A stretch of DNA of 32,592 bases from Bdellovibrionales bacterium (GCA_947502835.1 CANNBJ010000002.1:539396-571987); one strand, 5' to 3'; positions 13,846 through 25,135 are shown, numbered from the stretch's first letter. Numbers and translations are program-made. Notes: generated by a model from the letters alone, not told the origin.

Positions 13846-14205
13846 TCAGTCCTTCAGTTGGATGAGCTTGTCCGGGGTGGGAGCGCTCAGTTTGAATTTC
13901 TGTTTTGCGAGCGCCTCGAGGCGTCTCGGAGAGCGGAGTTGGGCGACTTTCAGTTCGAGTTTTTCGTTTTCAAGTTTCAGATTGTGAAGGGTCTTGTTTG
14001 CCTGATCAAGCTCGTAGGTCGTATGAACAACACTCAGGCGGAGCCATACGGTGGCGAAGGCGAGAACAATCAAAACCGGAATGGTCCAAATCGGAACGAG
14101 TTTCCCCATCTGCACGTTCAAGAGTATCCCGATCAACAATGGGCGGGCAACCAAAAGATTTGAAATCACGAGCTTTTGCAGAGGTTTACCTCTGCCTCGG
14201 ATCAA
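13846..14205 (-). CDS. ftsL: FtsL-like bitopic division protein
   Basis: Small inner-membrane protein of the FtsQLB type that scaffolds FtsW-FtsI. The 119 residues include one membrane helix (LVPIWTIPVLIVLAFATVW). A heptad-rich coiled coil follows (YELDQANKTLHNLKLENEKL onward), then the FtsL-like ending LRSPRRLEALAKQKF. Family sequence conservation is low, so identification rests mainly on topology and on position between rsmH and ftsI. The TTG at 14203-14205 overlaps the rsmH stop codon, which suggests coupling. An internal ATG at 14107-14109 would give a shorter 87-residue protein with a more typical N-terminus, and I cannot decide between them. Confidence 0.8.
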   Translation of the reverse strand: MIRGRGKPLQKLVISNLLVARPLLIGILLNVQMGKLVPIWTIPVLIVLAFATVWLRLSVVHTTYELDQANKTLHNLKLENEKLELKVAQLRSPRRLEALAKQKFKLSAPTPDKLIQLKD

Positions 14206-15176
14206 CGCATTGACGAGGGGGTTTCGGGTTCTGACGGCTTGCGGATTGCGAGCCTGAGTTTCGCACTTCGGGATCGCGAATTGAGTTCGATTTCCGAATC
14301 TCCGGCTTGCAGCGGTTTCTTGAACGGCAGCTCATAGAGATTCCGCTTCCGGAACTCCTCCTTGACGAGTCGGTCCTCAAGGGAATGAAATGAGAGGATC
14401 GCAATTCGACCTCCGGGAGCCGTCTTCGGGAAACCCTTCAGGATCAGGGTTTCAAGTTCCTTGAGCTCCTCGTTGATCTCGATTCGCAGAGCCTGGAACG
14501 TTCGCGTTGCCGGATGGATTCCTTGGTGACGCATGCCCGGAGGAAACACGGATCGAATCGCATCCGCAAGATCGGCGGTGGTCTTGGGCATCTGGCCCCG
14601 GCTCCTGAGATCGACAATCCGGCGCGCGATTTTTCGGGAAAAACGCTCCTCCCCGTAGCGCCAGATCACATCGGCAAGATCGGTTTCGCTCACCCCTTCC
14701 AGCCACTCGGTGAGCGGAATGCCCCGGGATTGGTTCATTCGCATGTCGAGGGGGGCGTCGAAGCGAAAACTGAACCCCCGGGTTTCCGAATCGATCTGGT
14801 CGCTTGAGATGCCAAGATCAGCGAGAACCCCGTAAAGTGGCCGATTTCCAATGATTTTCATCGACTCACTGAAGGCGCAGTGATGAAGTTCCATGACCCC
14901 GTCCTCCAGCTCTTTTTGGAAGCGGGAACGGTTTCGACTGATTGCGTCAAGATCTCGATCAACTCCGATCAGGCGGTGGTTTCGGGCCCCCGGAATCGAG
15001 GCGAGTTTTTCGAGAAGCCTTGCCGAATGACCGCCGCCACCGAGGGTGCAATCGAGGATGACTCCGGGCTCGGAGTGTTCGGGAAGGAGCCGGATTCCCT
15101 CGGCCAAAAAGTCCGTGATCGGCTCAAGCAGGATGGGGATGTGACGGGTGGTTTCAGAGGCGCTTTGTGCTGACAT
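14202..15176 (-). CDS. rsmH: 16S rRNA (cytosine1402-N4)-methyltransferase
   Basis: RsmH (MraW) methylates N4 of C1402 in the decoding centre of 16S rRNA and is normally one of the first dcw genes. The 324-residue protein begins HIPILLEP. It has the SAM-binding loop LDCTLGGGGHSARLLE (about 41-56), GVDRD, the ADLGISSDQIDSETRGFSF block, LDMRM, RIEINEELKEL and ILSFHSLEDRLVK. The closing SRSRSAKLRLAIRKP is typical. Upstream, on the other strand, lies the AMP nucleosidase gene 52 bases away, and mraZ is absent. No Shine-Dalgarno sequence or clear promoter is visible before the ATG at 15176. Confidence 0.96.
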   Translation of the reverse strand: MSAQSASETTRHIPILLEPITDFLAEGIRLLPEHSEPGVILDCTLGGGGHSARLLEKLASIPGARNHRLIGVDRDLDAISRNRSRFQKELEDGVMELHHCAFSESMKIIGNRPLYGVLADLGISSDQIDSETRGFSFRFDAPLDMRMNQSRGIPLTEWLEGVSETDLADVIWRYGEERFSRKIARRIVDLRSRGQMPKTTADLADAIRSVFPPGMRHQGIHPATRTFQALRIEINEELKELETLILKGFPKTAPGGRIAILSFHSLEDRLVKEEFRKRNLYELPFKKPLQAGDSEIELNSRSRSAKLRLAIRKPSEPETPSSMR

Positions 15177-15192
15177 AATCGAATGATTTCGC

Positions 15193-15221
15193 TTGTTTCT
15201 GCCCTCTCACCTCGGTAACCT
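15193..15221 (+). promoter_or_regulatory. Predicted promoter for a leaderless AMP nucleosidase transcript
   Basis: TTGTTT (15193-15198), a 17-base spacer and TAACCT (15216-15221). The -10 hexamer ends 7 bases before the GTG at 15229, so the expected transcription start falls on or next to the start codon. No Shine-Dalgarno sequence is present in the short gap. It lies within the 52 bases between divergent rsmH and the nucleosidase gene. Confidence 0.5.
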
Positions 15222-15228
15222 ACGGATC

Positions 15229-17098
<1,870 letters not shown>

Positions 17099-17121
17099 TT
17101 CGGGTTCCCGGATTCAATCCC

Positions 17122-17721
17122 ATGGCCTACAACAAGCGCGATCATTATTATCATAAGGCGAAAGAAGAGAATTTCGCGGCCCGCTCGATTTACAAGCTCG
17201 AAGAGATCGATCAGAAATTCAAGATCATCAAGTCCGGCATGAAAGTGCTCGACCTCGGGGCCGCTCCCGGATCCTGGTCGCAGTACCTCTCCCAAAAAGT
17301 CGGCGAGCAGGGCCGGGTGTTGGGTGTTGATTTGATTCAGGTCGAACTCACGCTCGCGAATGCGGTTTTCATCCATGCGGATCTCAGGGACCTCAACCTT
17401 GATCAGATCTTCGAGCAAAACGGCTTTGCGCCAATCTTTGATGGTGTGTTTTCGGATATGGCGCCAAAAACAACCGGAATCCGGATCACCGATCAGGCCC
17501 GCTCGATGGAGCTTTGCGAGCTTGCTCTTGACATAGCGGTGAGGTTTCTCAGGCCCGGCGGTAACTTTGTCTGCAAGTTCTTCCACTCGGATGATTTTCA
17601 GGCGCTCAAGAAGCAAATGGATGGAGTGTTTGGACGCGTTGAGGTGCTTCGACCGAAGAGTACCCGCAAAGAATCCAAAGAGATTTTCTTGATTGGAATT
17701 TCGAAAAAGAAAAACGGATAG
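17122..17721 (+). CDS. rlmE: 23S rRNA (uridine2552-2'-O)-methyltransferase
   Basis: RlmE (FtsJ/RrmJ) methylates the ribose of U2552 in the ribosomal A-loop late in 50S assembly. The 199-residue protein has the SAM loop KVLDLGAAPGSWSQYL and the catalytic K-D-K-E tetrad at K25 (RSIYKLEE), D112 (SDMAPKTTG), K152 (CKFF) and E187 (KEIFLIG), spaced as in the E. coli enzyme. It lies 23 bases after mreB in the same direction, without a clear Shine-Dalgarno sequence. It converges on the large FN3 lipoprotein gene, with 26 bases between the stops. Confidence 0.95.
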   Translation: MAYNKRDHYYHKAKEENFAARSIYKLEEIDQKFKIIKSGMKVLDLGAAPGSWSQYLSQKVGEQGRVLGVDLIQVELTLANAVFIHADLRDLNLDQIFEQNGFAPIFDGVFSDMAPKTTGIRITDQARSMELCELALDIAVRFLRPGGNFVCKFFHSDDFQALKKQMDGVFGRVEVLRPKSTRKESKEIFLIGISKKKNG

Positions 17722-17747
17722 ACCTGGCGACGGGCTGTCGGGAATTC

Positions 17748-20700
17748 TTAATGCTGGACTTGCCACTCCGGACTGCTGCAGATCCCGTACATCACCCGAA
17801 TCCATTTGTCTGTGTTGTTCGTCGTCGCGGTATTTCCGAGTGCGGTGAGGCCCGTGATCACGGCGCTCGATGGCGTTTGAAGTGGATAAAAAAGCTGGTA
17901 CGCCGTAGTCAGGGTCGCAGAGGCGGGTGCAGGAATCGTCGCAGGCAGTGTACCACCGAAAACTTTTGTCAGAATGGCATTCCTGGCCGTCGCATCGCTG
18001 AGGAGCGCATCACAGGCTTTAGCGACGAGTGCGAATCGGGCTGAGTTCAGCTGAGCAGGGAGCACTGCGCTCATTCCGCTGAAACATTGCTCATTCGAAG
18101 GAGAATAAGTGATTAAATTTCGACCCTCGTCCACAGCTGTAATTTTAGCTGCATAGGTGTCGCAGGCTCCCCCCAGGGAGGCTTGCGTGAGTATGTTGCT
18201 TGTGATTGCAGTATCGGCAGCTCCCCCTGCGCTGATGGGGCCGAATAAGTCGCGGAGCATGGAGTCCACATAGCGTCGATCCACCAAGCGAAGTTCGGAT
18301 TCAAAATTGATGCTTGCTGCGGGCGTATCGCCATTTCCAGTCGTGGTGCCGGAAGTGGTAAAAGTCAGAGTGCTTGAGGCTCCCGGGCTTGAGCTTGAAT
18401 TAAGTGCAAGTACCCTGAAAAAATAAGAAGTTCCGCTGCTCAGACTTGCAGTATGGGGCGAAGTGGCAGCGATGCCTGCGCCGGAAAGAGGAGTGCTCGT
18501 TCCGAGGTCCACCTTGTAGGACAAACTGATTCCTCCAGCAAGCGCTCCTTGTTTTACCCAGTCTTTGAGGAAGGTGAGCAAGGTGGGAGCAAGGGCAGTG
18601 GATACCCCCATGTGTCCTGAATTGATGATCTTGTAGAGTCCTGACTCCTCGGGATTAATGACATTGATGCGGGCGGTGCCAGGAAAGGTGTTGACCATCG
18701 TTCCGACCAGGGATTGGTGGGCCAAGTTTGCATCAGTGGATGCATGTTGGGACAGACGATAGCCAGAGCCTACCGTACCATTTGAAATACTATGGCAGCC
18801 GACGCAATTGGTTTTTAAGAATCCATAGAGTCCGCTCGACGTAAACGAGGTCAGGGACACGGTACTTCCCGGGGTCCAGGTCAGGATTGCGCTGTTATTC
18901 GTGACCGAACTCGCGGCAGCGGCGATCGGACTCTTTGGAGCTTCAATCGGAATCGGAAGGGTGGCGGGACTCGATTGAGCAGTGGCAGAGGAGTTTGAGA
19001 CGCTGATCCTGAAGTAGTAAGTTCGGCTGCCGAATAAGCCACTCACACTCTGGCCTGATGCGAAATTGCTGATCGAGGTGGAATTATTCAGGAGTAAGGG
19101 GTCGAGTCCGTAGGTAAGGGTCCCACTGGTGCTTGAGCCAGTAAAGGTCACCGTAGTGCTGTAGGTATCTGCAGGAGTGATCTGGGATCGGACAGGGCCC
19201 AGGCTCAAGATCGGAGTTGCAGGAGCGGTAATCAGGCTCCCGATCGAAGAAGACGTGCTTGCGGTGCTGTTATTCGCAGTTACACGATAAAAATAAGTGC
19301 TGCCGAGGCTGAGACCGGCCAGAGTGTGAGTCAAGATTCCGCTGAGCCGTCCTGAGGAGAACACATTCGTTTGAAATGAGGAATCTAGACTCCATTCGAC
19401 CAGGTAGGAATCCACGGTGCCTCCACCGCTTCCCGCTTGCCAGGTGATTGTGGCTGAATTTCCGGTGTTTACGCTGATCGTTGTGATGACTGGAGCGCTC
19501 GGAGCAAGAGGCGAGGTGAGAACGTTGAGAGTGTTGGAGGGCGCGGATGCGCCCGCGGCAGAGTTGGCATAAGCAACGAGATAGTAGCGGGTCGCAGGCT
19601 GCAGTGAGGAAATCGTTTGGGTGAGAGCTGTGATGCCGCTGATCGTGGTGGCTTGAGAAAGGTCAGAAAAGAGACTGTATTTTAAAGTGTAGGAAGTCGC
19701 TCCTGTGACTGCAGACCAATCCACTTTCACAGAGGACGCAGTCATCGAACCCATTCCCGCTGTAATCACCGGAGGTGCGGAGAGGGTTTGTGAGCTCAGC
19801 ACTGCGGAGCTGGCCGAGAGTGAGCCTGCGTTTGCCGTAACTTTATAAAAGAGAGTCGACCCGGCTGAGGCAGGGAGGGTCACAGTTGAGGTCACTGAAT
19901 TCTGCGTGGAACCGAGCGATGAGGTGGGTCCGTAGGCAATCGAATAGGTCGTACTGCTCCCATTGGTCGAGGTCCAACTCAGGGTGATGGAGGTTTCTGT
20001 GGCAACTGGGGTGATCGAAGCCGGGGCCACGGGTGTGGTGATCCATGAACTTTGAGACGCAAACGAGGAGGTTGCAGAATAGACTGCAGCGACCTCATAA
20101 AAGTACTGGGTGCCGGGATCAAGGGAGGTAAGCGCATAGCTCCTGAGGCTTGATGCAAGGGAGGTCGCGGTGGCACTCGCAAGCAGAGCCTGAGTTTTCG
20201 CATATTTCATGCGGAAGCCAGTGGGAGCACTCGCCCCCCCGCTTACCGTCCAATTCAGGGTTGCGCCGGATGAGGTGATGGAAGTTACAGACGAGAGCGT
20301 AGGAGCTCCCTGATTCAAGGTAGTTTGAAAAGAGAGTGGGACTGCGGAAGAAGTTCCGGCAGAGTTCTTAGCCGCAACCGAAACAAAATAGGTCGTACCG
20401 GGGGTGAGTGAAGAGAGAGTAAAACTCGTAGCGCTGACCGTGACCGGAGTGCCAGTGGGAGGATTGGTGGTTCCGGAAGTCAGGAGATATTCAGTGGGAG
20501 TGCCGCCAGTTTGATTTGGAGACCATGACAAAATGGCTGAATTTTGAGAGGGTACTGCCGAGAGGTTCTGTGGAATGCCGGGCGGACTGATCTGCGTGCG
20601 GAAAACTTGGGTGGTGGAGGGGGTGGAGCCCGAGGTGTTTTTCGCAATCACTTGGAGCGAATAACTCTGATCGGAGATCAACCCACTCAAGGTAATCGTG

Positions 20701-21809
20701 GAGCTCTGGGTGTTTTGAGTCGTCGGACTCGTTTGATTGACTTGGCCTAAGACTACATCATAGGAGTCCGCGCCTGGCACAGGTTGCCAGCTGAGGGTGA
20801 CGCTCGAGGAAGTGATGGTCATCGGTAGGGAGATGACCGGTGCACTGGGCCTCGTCTTGATCGGAAGGATGGCGGATGCGGTCTCGCGGGTGAGGTTTTT
20901 TGCAATCACCTGATAATAGTATTGGGTGCCCGGATTCAAGCCTTGAGCTAAGTAGGAGGTGGATGGAGTTCCGGGAACGATCGGACCCACCAGATTGCGG
21001 AGTCCGGGAAGGTTTGATTCGAGAGTGGGATTCACTCCAAACAGGATGAAAAAAGAAGTGGTGGATCCGGCTCCACTCCCGGCTCTCCAACTGAATTGGA
21101 TGGAGGATAAGTCTGCAACGGCAGTAAGGGCCGTGGGTGCAGGAGGGGCAAGATCCAGGGTTCGAAAATGGGCCACATCCGAATCGTTTTGACCGCTTGT
21201 GTTTTTTGCCCTGATATACAGATGGTACTCGGTTCCCGCGCTTAAGGAAGTGAGTGAAATGGGATTTGAGGGATTCGAAAGCAGGATGGGATTTTGAAGA
21301 CCAGGATCGGTGCTGTAAAAAAGTTGATGTTCGCTTGCGTTAGAGCCCGGGGTAAAGGGGATCTCAAGTGAGGTCTCTCGTGAGATCGGGGATCCGAAGA
21401 TGGGCTTTCCGGGAGCGGGACTCATCACGGTGAAGCTTCCGATCGAGGACGTGCGGAGTATTTGGCCGCCCGCCATTTCAGTGATTCGGTAGAAGTAGAT
21501 TGCTCCTGGAGAGAGGCCCTGAAGGGTATAGGGAGGAGTGAGGTTCGGGACGGATATTGCATTGGAGAGCGTGGAGGAGAGTGAGTATTCAAGAAGAAAG
21601 CTCGTTACGGGGAACGAGGTTTGGACCCCAATCGATGCATCGGTTGACCAATTCAGAAGTTGAGAGCTTTCACTGAGTTGCGTCGATTGAAGTAGGGTGA
21701 TTCCGGTGGCCTTCTGATCCGAAAAAACGAGTTCCCCTGGATTGCCGAACTTCGAGCAACCATTCAGAACGAGCGAAGTGAATGCAAGGAACAGGGATAG
21801 GCAATTCAT
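17748..21809 (-). CDS. Large lipoprotein with FN3-like repeats, embedded cytochrome c motif and PSD3-like domain
   Basis: A 1353-residue lipoprotein. The signal peptide ends in LVLNGC (lipobox, C18), and Ser at +2 suggests outer-membrane placement. About eleven FN3-like repeats of 80-100 residues follow, each with a W near strand B and a closing Y-x-Y/F-x-V-x-A motif. The eleventh repeat is interrupted after ILTWTPGSTVSL by roughly 95 residues holding CVGCH (1002-1006) and GHMG (possible Met ligand), ending LLTFLKDWVKQGAL as in planctomycete-type PSCyt1 cytochromes. The FN3 strands then resume (ISLSYKVDLG). The C-terminus, from ESELRLVDRRYVDSMLRDLFG, resembles PSD3 (DUF1587). It is the last gene of an operon; its ATG overlaps the DUF1501 stop by 4 bases. 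Function is unknown; surface electron transfer or substrate binding is inference. Confidence 0.85.
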   Translation of the reverse strand: MNCLSLFLAFTSLVLNGCSKFGNPGELVFSDQKATGITLLQSTQLSESSQLLNWSTDASIGVQTSFPVTSFLLEYSLSSTLSNAISVPNLTPPYTLQGLSPGAIYFYRITEMAGGQILRTSSIGSFTVMSPAPGKPIFGSPISRETSLEIPFTPGSNASEHQLFYSTDPGLQNPILLSNPSNPISLTSLSAGTEYHLYIRAKNTSGQNDSDVAHFRTLDLAPPAPTALTAVADLSSIQFSWRAGSGAGSTTSFFILFGVNPTLESNLPGLRNLVGPIVPGTPSTSYLAQGLNPGTQYYYQVIAKNLTRETASAILPIKTRPSAPVISLPMTITSSSVTLSWQPVPGADSYDVVLGQVNQTSPTTQNTQSSTITLSGLISDQSYSLQVIAKNTSGSTPSTTQVFRTQISPPGIPQNLSAVPSQNSAILSWSPNQTGGTPTEYLLTSGTTNPPTGTPVTVSATSFTLSSLTPGTTYFVSVAAKNSAGTSSAVPLSFQTTLNQGAPTLSSVTSITSSGATLNWTVSGGASAPTGFRMKYAKTQALLASATATSLASSLRSYALTSLDPGTQYFYEVAAVYSATSSFASQSSWITTPVAPASITPVATETSITLSWTSTNGSSTTYSIAYGPTSSLGSTQNSVTSTVTLPASAGSTLFYKVTANAGSLSASSAVLSSQTLSAPPVITAGMGSMTASSVKVDWSAVTGATSYTLKYSLFSDLSQATTISGITALTQTISSLQPATRYYLVAYANSAAGASAPSNTLNVLTSPLAPSAPVITTISVNTGNSATITWQAGSGGGTVDSYLVEWSLDSSFQTNVFSSGRLSGILTHTLAGLSLGSTYFYRVTANNSTASTSSSIGSLITAPATPILSLGPVRSQITPADTYSTTVTFTGSSTSGTLTYGLDPLLLNNSTSISNFASGQSVSGLFGSRTYYFRISVSNSSATAQSSPATLPIPIEAPKSPIAAAASSVTNNSAILTWTPGSTVSLTSFTSSGLYGFLKTNCVGCHSISNGTVGSGYRLSQHASTDANLAHQSLVGTMVNTFPGTARINVINPEESGLYKIINSGHMGVSTALAPTLLTFLKDWVKQGALAGGISLSYKVDLGTSTPLSGAGIAATSPHTASLSSGTSYFFRVLALNSSSSPGASSTLTFTTSGTTTGNGDTPAASINFESELRLVDRRYVDSMLRDLFGPISAGGAADTAITSNILTQASLGGACDTYAAKITAVDEGRNLITYSPSNEQCFSGMSAVLPAQLNSARFALVAKACDALLSDATARNAILTKVFGGTLPATIPAPASATLTTAYQLFYPLQTPSSAVITGLTALGNTATTNNTDKWIRVMYGICSSPEWQVQH

Positions 21810-23566
21810 GTGGAGGTGTGCCCTCCAGGCGGGAGTGTGGGATCGAGCACGAGTTTTCCATCACTGCCTTTAGTGACGAGTGAATGATCGTTTGGAGTGG
21901 GGGATGGGATCTCAAGAGCGGCCGCAATGGTGCTTGCGACCCGTCCGATCCTGAGGGGTTGCGGATCTGAAGGACTCAGGTTGTCAGCGAGACCCCAAGA
22001 GCCGAGATAGTCGTTGGTAGCTTGTCCGCCTCTTTGGCCTGAATCGTTTTTGATTTTTCCGACAAGCTTGATCCCGTTGATCATCCCGGAGTGAAGGGAG
22101 TAGTTCGAACCGTTGTAGCCGTGATCGGAACCAGTCATATCGGTCCGGGCGCTTCGATTGAAGTCTCCGGAAACCTGAATCAGGGTTCGATCAAACAAAT
22201 TCAAGGTTGAACCATTCGGGGCCGTTCCCGCGTTGACTGCCTTGAATCGAGTGATCAATTCATGGAGGCAAGCATAGAATGCACGGATTTGTTTGATCGT
22301 GACGATCGTTGAGGGAATCGCACCATAAAAGTGATGATCATTGTTGCCTGGATTTGCACCGGTTACGCCTCCCATGTGCTCGATCAGAATGTTCGCAACC
22401 GAAGTAAAGCCATTCGTGAACATGTACTCTGCAAGCGCCATTCCCTGGGCAAGGCTGTAAACCACCGATGAGTTCGTAAATGCCGCATTGAAATCAGTAC
22501 CAGTCCAGCGTGAGCCACCTGAATTGATTTGGAATGCATTGAGAGTGCTACTCGAGTTCGAGACAGGGTCAAGTTCAATGGGGAGAAAATGGTCGATCTT
22601 ATTAAACCCGGTGCCACCCATGATCGAAAGTTGAATCAAGAGTTTATATTTTGAGACCAAGGCATCGTACGTCCCAGCAAGATTCGTGATGTTTTTTGTG
22701 AAAATGGCTTTGGCATTTGCTCGCTGGGCATAGGTGGTCGGCAAGTACTTGTGGAGCAGGAGCGAGTCCCCGCTCATCGCCGAAAACAAATTATCAAGGG
22801 CAGAACTGATTGTGGTTTTTTCGAGTGAGGTGATCGAGCCTAGTCCCGTGAAGGGGGTGAGAGCCTTGGTGAGCGGGTTGGTCCAATCGAGGTCACCAAG
22901 GCTGAGCTCTGGAACTCCGGTTGCAGATTGATAGGCTTGAACCTTGTCATATCTCCACCCTTGAATGGCGGGGATCGGAGTATTCACTTGGTCTGCAAGA
23001 AGCCCGGTGATCGAAGGTTGGCCTTGCACGGGCTGGGTGGGCAGACGGCTGTCGATTTGGTGGGAATCGACCAACAGGTCTACTCCCATGATCATCATGA
23101 GATTTGAAGCCAAGGCATCCGAAAGGTTGATCGGCGTGCCTGCAGCAAAGCTCGTTCCCGACACAGATACTGTCGGAATGGATTTCGACCAAATGAGGGG
23201 CATGTTGATGCCCCCCAAGACTGGATTCGAGTAGCGCACGTCATTTACTGCCTGATAAATCAGGAACTGGGTGGTATTGGAGATGGTCCCTGTGATTTGG
23301 GTGCCGACACTTCGATTGGGGGTAAAGCCAGTGCCATGCTTTAGGGGTAAATCCATGTTCCATCTTGAAATTCCCATCAGCAGATGAAAATTGATGAACT
23401 TGTTTGGATTTGGATTTACTCCTGCCGCAAAGGCTTCGGAATTGCGGATCATCTCTGTTGCCATCGAGGCCACGAACATCTTGACCGGATTTAAGTAACT
23501 CACTCCCGCAAACCAGGCTGAGCGCTTTAGAAATTCACGTCGGGATGGATCCGTTCTTTTTTTCAT
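21806..23566 (-). CDS. Tat-exported DUF1501 family protein
   Basis: A 586-residue protein of the DUF1501 group (distantly alkaline-phosphatase/sulfatase-like). It carries a twin-arginine signal, SRREFLKRSAWFAG (8-21), so it is exported folded. The family block near the C-terminus is TLIQVSGDFNRSART followed by GSDHGYNGSNYSLHSG, matching the SGEFGRTP...DHW pattern of DUF1501. A conserved Ala/Ile-rich end (RVASTIAAALEIPSP) follows. Catalytic activity is unproven for the family. Known DUF1501 genes are usually paired with DUF1800 or with PSCyt/PSD cytochrome genes, and here the flanking genes are of the second kind. I chose the ATG at 23566 (GGGAG upstream, ATGA overlap with the preceding stop) over a TTG 12 bases further upstream. 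Confidence 0.85.
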   Translation of the reverse strand: MKKRTDPSRREFLKRSAWFAGVSYLNPVKMFVASMATEMIRNSEAFAAGVNPNPNKFINFHLLMGISRWNMDLPLKHGTGFTPNRSVGTQITGTISNTTQFLIYQAVNDVRYSNPVLGGINMPLIWSKSIPTVSVSGTSFAAGTPINLSDALASNLMMIMGVDLLVDSHQIDSRLPTQPVQGQPSITGLLADQVNTPIPAIQGWRYDKVQAYQSATGVPELSLGDLDWTNPLTKALTPFTGLGSITSLEKTTISSALDNLFSAMSGDSLLLHKYLPTTYAQRANAKAIFTKNITNLAGTYDALVSKYKLLIQLSIMGGTGFNKIDHFLPIELDPVSNSSSTLNAFQINSGGSRWTGTDFNAAFTNSSVVYSLAQGMALAEYMFTNGFTSVANILIEHMGGVTGANPGNNDHHFYGAIPSTIVTIKQIRAFYACLHELITRFKAVNAGTAPNGSTLNLFDRTLIQVSGDFNRSARTDMTGSDHGYNGSNYSLHSGMINGIKLVGKIKNDSGQRGGQATNDYLGSWGLADNLSPSDPQPLRIGRVASTIAAALEIPSPTPNDHSLVTKGSDGKLVLDPTLPPGGHTST

Positions 23567-25047
23567 GGGGCTCCCCAATCCGGTCTGATAAAGGCCTGTG
23601 AATTGATGATTTCGAGGATCAATGACTTGAGGCTTTTGCTGGTCTTCAGATTTTGTCCAAGCGCGATGACTTGATTGCGATGGTAAATTTGATCTGGGTT
23701 GAGAGAGGCTGCGGTTGGATTTGCCTGTGCCCTGACTTCCAGGTTTTCCAGGTTCACGCTGATGCCGGTAAAATATTTATAGTACTTGCTTGCCACACAG
23801 GCATAGAAATCATCTTGAGCGGCAATCGCCGTACCGAGAGCACCGATTCCATTGATGTCGAGATCAATGAGCGTTCGATTCGAATCGTAAGAGCGAAAAA
23901 AGAGCTTCCCTTTTGGCGCCCGGGTGTAAAAGAGTGGATCAGGAACTTTTGGAAAACTAAGATCAGTTCCGCCCTGATCGGGGGCAAAGGAGCCTGCGCT
24001 TCGATTGGCAACGAATTGGATGGATCCCAAATCATCCGGGCCTCCGCTTTTCACCGAAATCAAGTTCCTGAAAATGGCGGCTCCCCGATCCATCGACACA
24101 TGACACTGCAGGCAAGTTGACGAAAATCGGTAGGCAGAGGCATCCGGATATGTGGCACTTGAGATCGGGGTAATATCCGGGTAGTCAGAGCTTAAGACCA
24201 CAGGCAAACTCTTGCAGAAAAAATCCTGATAAATGTTTCGCATGAGACGTCGCCTGAGCAAGGTGGTACCGTTTTGAAGCATTCCTTGGTTCACATCCGC
24301 TGAAATCAGATAAGACTGGGTTCCGAAAAGTCCGGCACCTGTGGGGGCATTCATGTCTCGGGTCGCAGTATTGCTGGTTCCTACGGTGGACGCAGGGAGG
24401 TCTCTATCAAGCTTCCCTGAGGAATCGGGGTAGAGAGTGGCATTTGGCACAGCAGGGACAATTCCAAGCAGATCTCCTTGTTGAATATAGCTCACGGTGG
24501 TCAGCGTGGTATTTCCCGGGCCATGCGCTGAAAAGGCGGTGAATGGGCTTAAGAGTTGGTAGATTGGAGCGGAAGTGAGGGTGCGCATTGCCGTAAAAGT
24601 TTGATTCCCGGTTAGAATGGTTGAGAAGTCCGCACCAGGCTTCAGGGTGAAATAGGTAAATGCATTCGCGATCTCATAGGTGTCGATCAAATGGGGGATC
24701 GCCTGCTTTTGAATGGCATTGAAGTACTCGGGAGTTGCAATGAAACCCCGAGCAACTTCATGGAGTTTCTTTATGACCCGTGGATCTCCTGAAAGATTTG
24801 TCGAGGCCAGTGCGGCACCATTCAGGAGTGCAGCGCACGCATCCTTGGCGGCAGTGCTCCCGGAAGCTGCGGTTTTGATTGAGGTTAGCATCGGGTTGGA
24901 TCGATCTGCATAGGGAACGGGTTTTCCGGTGAGTCGCTCATAGCAACGGTAGTAGCGACGAAGTTCCACATCGTCCCCGTAGGCAAACTGTGCAAAAAGA
25001 ATAAATAAACTCCCGAGGCCTAGCGCCCGGAGCAGAGCCGATCCCAT
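23563..25047 (-). CDS. Exported cytochrome-like protein resembling PSCyt3/PSD2 (DUF1588/DUF1585)
   Basis: A 494-residue protein with a signal peptide (GLGSLFILFAQFAYG). The segment RRLMRNIYQDFFCKSLP, then CLQCH (312-316) and MDRGAAIFRNL, follows the R..L..LC..P / CxxCH..MD pattern of PSCyt3 (DUF1588). The later segment DDFYACVASKYYKYFTG and the C-terminal LKSLILEIINSQAFI resemble PSD2 (DUF1585). The CxxCH suggests covalent haem c. The N-terminal third (ELRRYYRCYERLTGKPVP) is not recognised. I start at the ATG at 25047 because it gives a clean signal peptide; the open frame extends 28 codons further upstream without plausible content. It is the first gene of the operon, with a TACAAT 7 bases before the ATG. 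Confidence 0.75.
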   Translation of the reverse strand: MGSALLRALGLGSLFILFAQFAYGDDVELRRYYRCYERLTGKPVPYADRSNPMLTSIKTAASGSTAAKDACAALLNGAALASTNLSGDPRVIKKLHEVARGFIATPEYFNAIQKQAIPHLIDTYEIANAFTYFTLKPGADFSTILTGNQTFTAMRTLTSAPIYQLLSPFTAFSAHGPGNTTLTTVSYIQQGDLLGIVPAVPNATLYPDSSGKLDRDLPASTVGTSNTATRDMNAPTGAGLFGTQSYLISADVNQGMLQNGTTLLRRRLMRNIYQDFFCKSLPVVLSSDYPDITPISSATYPDASAYRFSSTCLQCHVSMDRGAAIFRNLISVKSGGPDDLGSIQFVANRSAGSFAPDQGGTDLSFPKVPDPLFYTRAPKGKLFFRSYDSNRTLIDLDINGIGALGTAIAAQDDFYACVASKYYKYFTGISVNLENLEVRAQANPTAASLNPDQIYHRNQVIALGQNLKTSKSLKSLILEIINSQAFIRPDWGAP

Positions 25048-25060: not shown

Positions 25061-25135
25061 GAGGTTGACACCAGCCTAAGATAGTGAGGCAGTCCGGACA
25101 CCCCTGAAAATAGCCGACTCCAATCGTGCACAAGG

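Follow-up and report, generated by a model that had tools for sequence, protein, structure and literature searches.

A candidate redox-hydrolase gene cassette of Bdellovibrionota with a movable mono-haem domain, nested here in a fibronectin type III repeat

On the minus strand of the window, by which we mean the whole 32,592-nucleotide stretch of DNA analysed here, three genes are joined by two literal ATGA overlaps. Gene A (23563..25047) encodes a predicted exported mono-haem c-type cytochrome of 494 residues with the architecture (PSD4-like?)-PSCyt3-PSD2, and its stop overlaps the start of gene B at 23563..23566. Gene B (21806..23566) encodes a Tat-exported, DUF1501-like protein of 586 residues with a predicted alkaline-phosphatase fold, and its stop overlaps, at 21806..21809, the start of gene C (17748..21809), which encodes a lipoprotein of 1353 residues. 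A purine-rich stretch lies immediately upstream of each junction. We read gene A from the ATG at 25047; a longer GTG frame begins at 25131. The original prediction of three linked genes whose products all carry export signals, two of them with a CxxCH motif, was borne out by the sequences: A has a Sec-type signal, B an RREFLKR motif (Tat) and C the lipobox LNGC at residues 15-18, and CLQCH is found at residues 312-316 of A and CVGCH at residues 1002-1006 of C. A scan for sigma-70 promoters gave sites no more numerous than in shuffles.

The C-terminal half of A (residues 238-494, 23566..24336, minus strand) was assigned by profile–profile comparison. Against the Pfam PSD2 model, window A scores 22.9 bits (E 7.2e-5), where the curated cut-off is 25.8 bits; of 19 homologues, 11 match PSCyt3 (E 3.8e-6) and 11 match PSD2. 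As canonical comparison proteins we took members of the same phylum that carry PF07626, and hhalign aligned residues 238-494 with canonical PSCyt3-PSD2 at E 4.6e-10 using 19 rows and at E 1.9e-12 using 46. These comparisons show that A is, at the level of sequence, homologous to canonical PSCyt/PSD proteins over their PSCyt3-PSD2 half, as had been proposed for this 494-residue protein. Its haem-binding motif CLQCH (24100..24114, minus strand), on whose conservation the proposal depended, keeps both cysteines, C312 and C315, invariant in 19/19 homologues. The N-terminal half of A (residues 30-230, 24358..24960, minus strand, limits approximate) has no Pfam match to PSD4. With hhalign it aligns colinearly with PSD4 at P 0.003, reversed-sequence controls giving 0.05 or weaker, and homology to PSD4, in very divergent form, is possible. 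One A homologue matched CTI (fatty acid cis/trans isomerase) at E 0.019, which we took to be a chance match driven by CxxCH. No relatives of A, of B or of the conserved core of C turned up in sequence searches of the PDB, and plasmid records contain no A homologue.

The middle gene had been predicted to encode a DUF1501 protein, and this identification gains weight from its relatives. The match of window B to DUF1501 (PF07394) is weak (E 0.077); 16 of 19 B homologues match the same family, the best at 8.8e-7, and the B proteins of several cassettes score above the Pfam cut-off. These matches support the view that B is a divergent DUF1501 protein. For an AlphaFold2 model of B (mean pLDDT 70), the best 50 rows from VIA-align all belong to the alkaline-phosphatase superfamily, the top one with Z 16.4 over 244 residues at an rmsd of 3.5, and Foldseek again points to this superfamily (best E 3e-3). 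We assign the model an alkaline-phosphatase-like fold. All 19 homologues keep residues H168, D409, H411 and H481, which we put forward as candidate metal ligands. A quite different reading would make the haem of A, and that of the accessory haem domain of C described below, a sensor or ligand-binding site, with B serving as an inactive, divergent scaffold of alkaline-phosphatase fold. The weak DUF1501 match of window B would agree with such a role, as would the replacement of its EF motif by DF (GDFNR, residue 467), but the invariance of the four His and Asp positions argues against it, and we regard it as very improbable.

Gene C ends in a conserved, all-helical domain (residues 1169-1353, 17751..18305, minus strand), referred to here as the C core. 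This stretch of ~185 residues has no Pfam family match and is, judged from aligned members, a conserved family of its own. All 48 cores compared have Cys109 and Cys187 (core numbering), and three have lost Cys59 together with Cys85 (Fisher 5.8e-5). The coupled loss indicates a disulfide, and the four cysteines would fit a pattern of two. The model of the core has a pLDDT of 92. Foldseek returned no significant match for it, and the top 11 rows from VIA-align are all phycobilisome linker domain PF00427 (Z 4.6-6.3). The likeness is one of predicted fold. For a helical domain, a common arrangement alone may produce a Z below 8, and with values this low we claim no kinship. The final helices of the model (residues 137-192, window about 17761-17928) carry the motif SPEW; by eye they look like the ends of SPEF type seen in PSD5, in PSD2 and in the N-terminal domain of RsaA (Z 2.5). 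A common three-helix module may underlie all of these ends.

Most of the remainder of C is an array of tandem fibronectin type III (FN3) domains (residues 131-1154, 18348..21419, minus strand), matched by Pfam fn3 (PF00041) in 9 stretches at E 1.8e-64 and probably preceded by one further FN3-like stretch. Within this array lies an accessory mono-haem domain, D (C residues 990-1093, 18531..18842, minus strand), which contains the CVGCH motif (18792..18806, minus strand) and is inserted in the last FN3 repeat, the tenth listed, within its B-C loop. Using an HMM built from the window's own FN3 repeats, we see that the N flank of D corresponds to positions 3-29 and the C flank to positions 28-85. 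When D is excised in silico, the flanks give one continuous and complete FN3 match of 40.3 bits, a score above all 20 equal-length excisions made elsewhere. The copy at locus L029, which is the sister of the window copy on the A tree (SH-aLRT 99) at 33% identity, has D at the same FN3 site, so the nested architecture was inherited and is not a one-off. To position a cofactor by nesting its haem domain in an FN3 loop is unusual. The haem domain of the lipoprotein had been expected to match the PSCyt1 profile (PF07635); no such match was found in window C or in the window's genome, and PSCyt1 was matched only in fused homologues, at the C-terminus of A and in C of L145. In place of the MP motif common to most D domains, D of the window has GHMG; the corresponding motif in D of L029 is GHGG, which lacks Met. 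From these motifs, His may serve as the sixth ligand of the haem in D.

Long, haem-bearing forms make up a minority of C proteins. Of 100 examined, 81 are shorter than 300 residues; most copies of C are small lipoproteins of ~220 residues that have no haem. CxxCH occurs in 2 of the 81 proteins below 300 residues versus 15 of the 19 longer ones, and the conservation of CxxCH on which the original prediction had relied does not extend to C: the motif is present in sister L029 but absent from most C orthologues. Long C proteins in other lineages carry Big_6/Big_13 (L143), He_PIG (L148) or HYDIN/ASH-type domains (L147). Since the Ig-like arrays differ, repeated and independent lengthening of C is suggested.

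The gene set is found throughout the phylum, which is probably Bdellovibrionota. At E 1e-3 or better, gene A has matches in 122 of 369 genomes of the phylum, though the weakest of these may be canonical proteins; for the C core the figure is 78 of 291. Of 111 C-core matches, 99 have an A match no more than 8 kb away, and for the remaining 12 no A is listed on the contig. Among 103 annotated A genes, 97 stand in ABC, BCA, CAB or ACB runs. The neighbourhood survey suggested by the original prediction thus finds the three-gene set at about 100 loci, mostly with no haem in C. Taken with the invariant CxxC of A, this recurrence is more than would be expected by chance. Distance correlations for A-B, A-C and B-C are 0.57, 0.35 and 0.33, calculated from raw distances that include species descent, against permutation maxima of 0.17, 0.13 and 0.11, and speak for co-inheritance of the three genes.

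A, B and the C core are the constant parts of the cassette, and D is an optional, variable one. It also occurs as a separate gene: CxxCH is present in 26 of 38 genes that follow C, versus 38 of 732 background ORFs (p 5e-22). Using CxxCH as a proxy, we find D fused to C in 14 cassettes, to the N-terminus of A in 9 and to the C-terminus of A in 4. On the A tree, the location of D changed at least 25 times and gene order at least 7 times. Such movement of D among A, C and a gene of its own makes it probable that the products sit and work together. The same proxy detects no D in 48 of 103 annotated cassettes, a count in which domains beyond the examined stretch may be hidden. As this is about half of the annotated cassettes, a relay between two haems cannot be general. 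That many cassettes have one haem only is in keeping with another reading, in which the haems of A and C are purely structural and the complex is an outer-membrane-tethered hydrolase without electron transfer; the predicted hydrolase fold of B would suit this as well. Against it are the invariant CxxCH of A and the repeated recruitment of a second mono-haem domain, both of which argue for redox use, and we consider a purely structural role distinctly unlikely.

The original prediction had interpreted the locus as a PSCyt/PSD protein split over two exported chains. For A, as the PSCyt3-PSD2 part, this stands. We find no support for the lipoprotein as the PSCyt1-PSD3 part: no Pfam match to PSD3 or PSD5 was found in window C or in any of the 48 C cores, PF07626 is matched nowhere in the window's genome, and hhalign of the C core against PSD3-PSD5 gives P 0.04, with reversed-sequence controls at 0.12 to 0.48. 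The PSD3 assignment is a by-eye resemblance over a short stretch, and after Pfam searches (48 members), hhalign and global hhalign we rejected a PSD3/PSD5 identity of the C core as unproven. Since most cassettes have no haem in C, this protein cannot be read simply as what was left on the N-terminal side when a PSCyt1 protein was cut. A split origin is possible, as those loci where a haem-bearing C precedes A (L143, L149-L151, L167, L172) mirror the canonical order. By such a fission, an ancestral PSCyt1-PSD3-PSD5-PSD4-PSCyt3-PSD2 protein would have been cut between PSD5 and PSD4 into C and A, and the haem of C would later have been lost in many lineages. The match of A to PSCyt3-PSD2, with its weak but colinear extension to PSD4, fits this account, and in L143 and L149-L151 the order C-A-B, with D N-terminal to the C core, is the canonical one. 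The SPEW/SPxW end of the core also resembles the SPxF end of PSD5, and the sole hhalign match lies there. The missing PSD3 and PSD5 matches weigh the other way, as do the conserved cysteines 59/85/109/187 of the core, the phycobilisome linkers as its closest solved folds, and the pairing of the canonical protein examined (at L057) with DUF1552 and not DUF1501. Given that D was relocated so often, its presence on C need not be ancestral. On balance we think fission unlikely.

Gene pairs of the PSCyt/PSD and DUF1501 kinds occur widely, and no function is known for them; comparison with them sets the cassette apart. The canonical protein at L057 has the order cytochrome-PSD3-PSD5-PSD4-PSCyt3-PSD2 and adjoins a DUF1552 gene. 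The cassette shares with it a PSCyt3-PSD2 c-type cytochrome beside an exported partner gene and, in some copies, an N-terminal mono-haem domain. It differs in that its parts lie on two or three chains, encoded by separate genes in all cassettes examined, in having no detectable PSD3 or PSD5, in its DUF1501-like partner, and in a lipoprotein core without a Pfam family. The canonical form is also the rarer in the phylum, with PSD3 found in 8 of 144 genomes, compared with the figures for A given above. PSCyt2-type proteins are partners of DUF1501 (PF07394) proteins. DUF1501 genes also pair with DUF1800 (PMC5122149). Such pairs resemble the cassette in having a Tat-exported DUF1501-type protein next to an exported partner; in the cassette, by contrast, that partner is a PSCyt3-PSD2-type cytochrome together with a lipoprotein, and no DUF1800 match was found. 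In Verrucomicrobia, genes of PSCyt3 type mostly adjoin another gene family of unknown function, their own role is unknown, and PSCyt proteins frequently have extra domains such as CBMs (PMC5615132). The proximity of a PSCyt3-type gene to another family is shared with the cassette, whereas in that survey PSCyt and PSD lie on one chain and not in an A-B-C set. We found no description of the A-B-C cassette in the open-access literature, and the gene set is apparently undescribed so far. Our verdict is that it is a PSCyt3-PSD2/DUF1501 system, divergent and dissected, whose haem domain can move. It offers a reduced and naturally dissected form of the PSCyt/PSD-DUF1501 system with its parts on separate chains, in which the movement of the haem domain hints at which proteins must lie together.

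In the working model that we somewhat favour, an enzyme of alkaline-phosphatase fold and a c-type cytochrome make up a complex that is tethered by a lipoprotein and to which an optional second haem may be added as an electron relay. A, B and the C core would assemble into a single complex, located either in the periplasm or at the outer membrane; the core would dock on A and B, and the lipid anchor with its Ig-like spacer would tether it. B would handle a substrate that A oxidises or reduces. As fused D adjoins the core of A or C, it would be placed beside the haem of A, bringing in a second haem from which, or to which, electrons could be relayed. Display of the haem at the cell surface by the FN3 array, as had been suggested, is possible but is not the reading we favour. 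A broader proposal is that Bdellovibrionota have a modular redox-hydrolase complex, not described before, in which a constant core of cytochrome, alkaline-phosphatase-fold protein and linker-like lipoprotein core repeatedly recruits a moving mono-haem domain; in the window's lineage that domain would have entered the loop of an FN3 domain so as to lie beside the core. We see this proposal as evenly balanced.

Several further features of the cassette loci were recorded. The window's genome has four A copies, and the further cassettes (L028, G000:C5; L026, G000:C3; L027, G000:C2:352000-371000) have A proteins 27-35% identical; at L027 the gene order is A-C-B. Genome G051 has two damaged or assembly-broken cassettes (L040, L031), in which one A contains an in-frame TGA and there are also ambiguous bases and split frames. 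Near ten cassette loci (L033:5133-7339, L034:10001-12054, L159:6722-8904, L030, L037, L158, L162, L165, L175 and L210) there is a recurrent neighbour, a protein of ~385 residues that starts YPxFIGHGYxSCxNCHxNPxG, has a single CxxCH and gave no convincing Pfam match. In L033, L034 and L159 it adjoins a protein of ~300-345 residues, and by eye the ends look like outer-membrane barrels. In the window (14202-25047), the A-B-C cassette lies 0.7 kb downstream of mreB. In sister genomes (L042, G001:C12; L043, G006:C63), a different, two-haem cassette subfamily, with TIG and PSCyt1 at the C-terminus of A, is found amid mraW, mreB and mur genes, and two cassette subfamilies thus occur near the same cell-wall locus.
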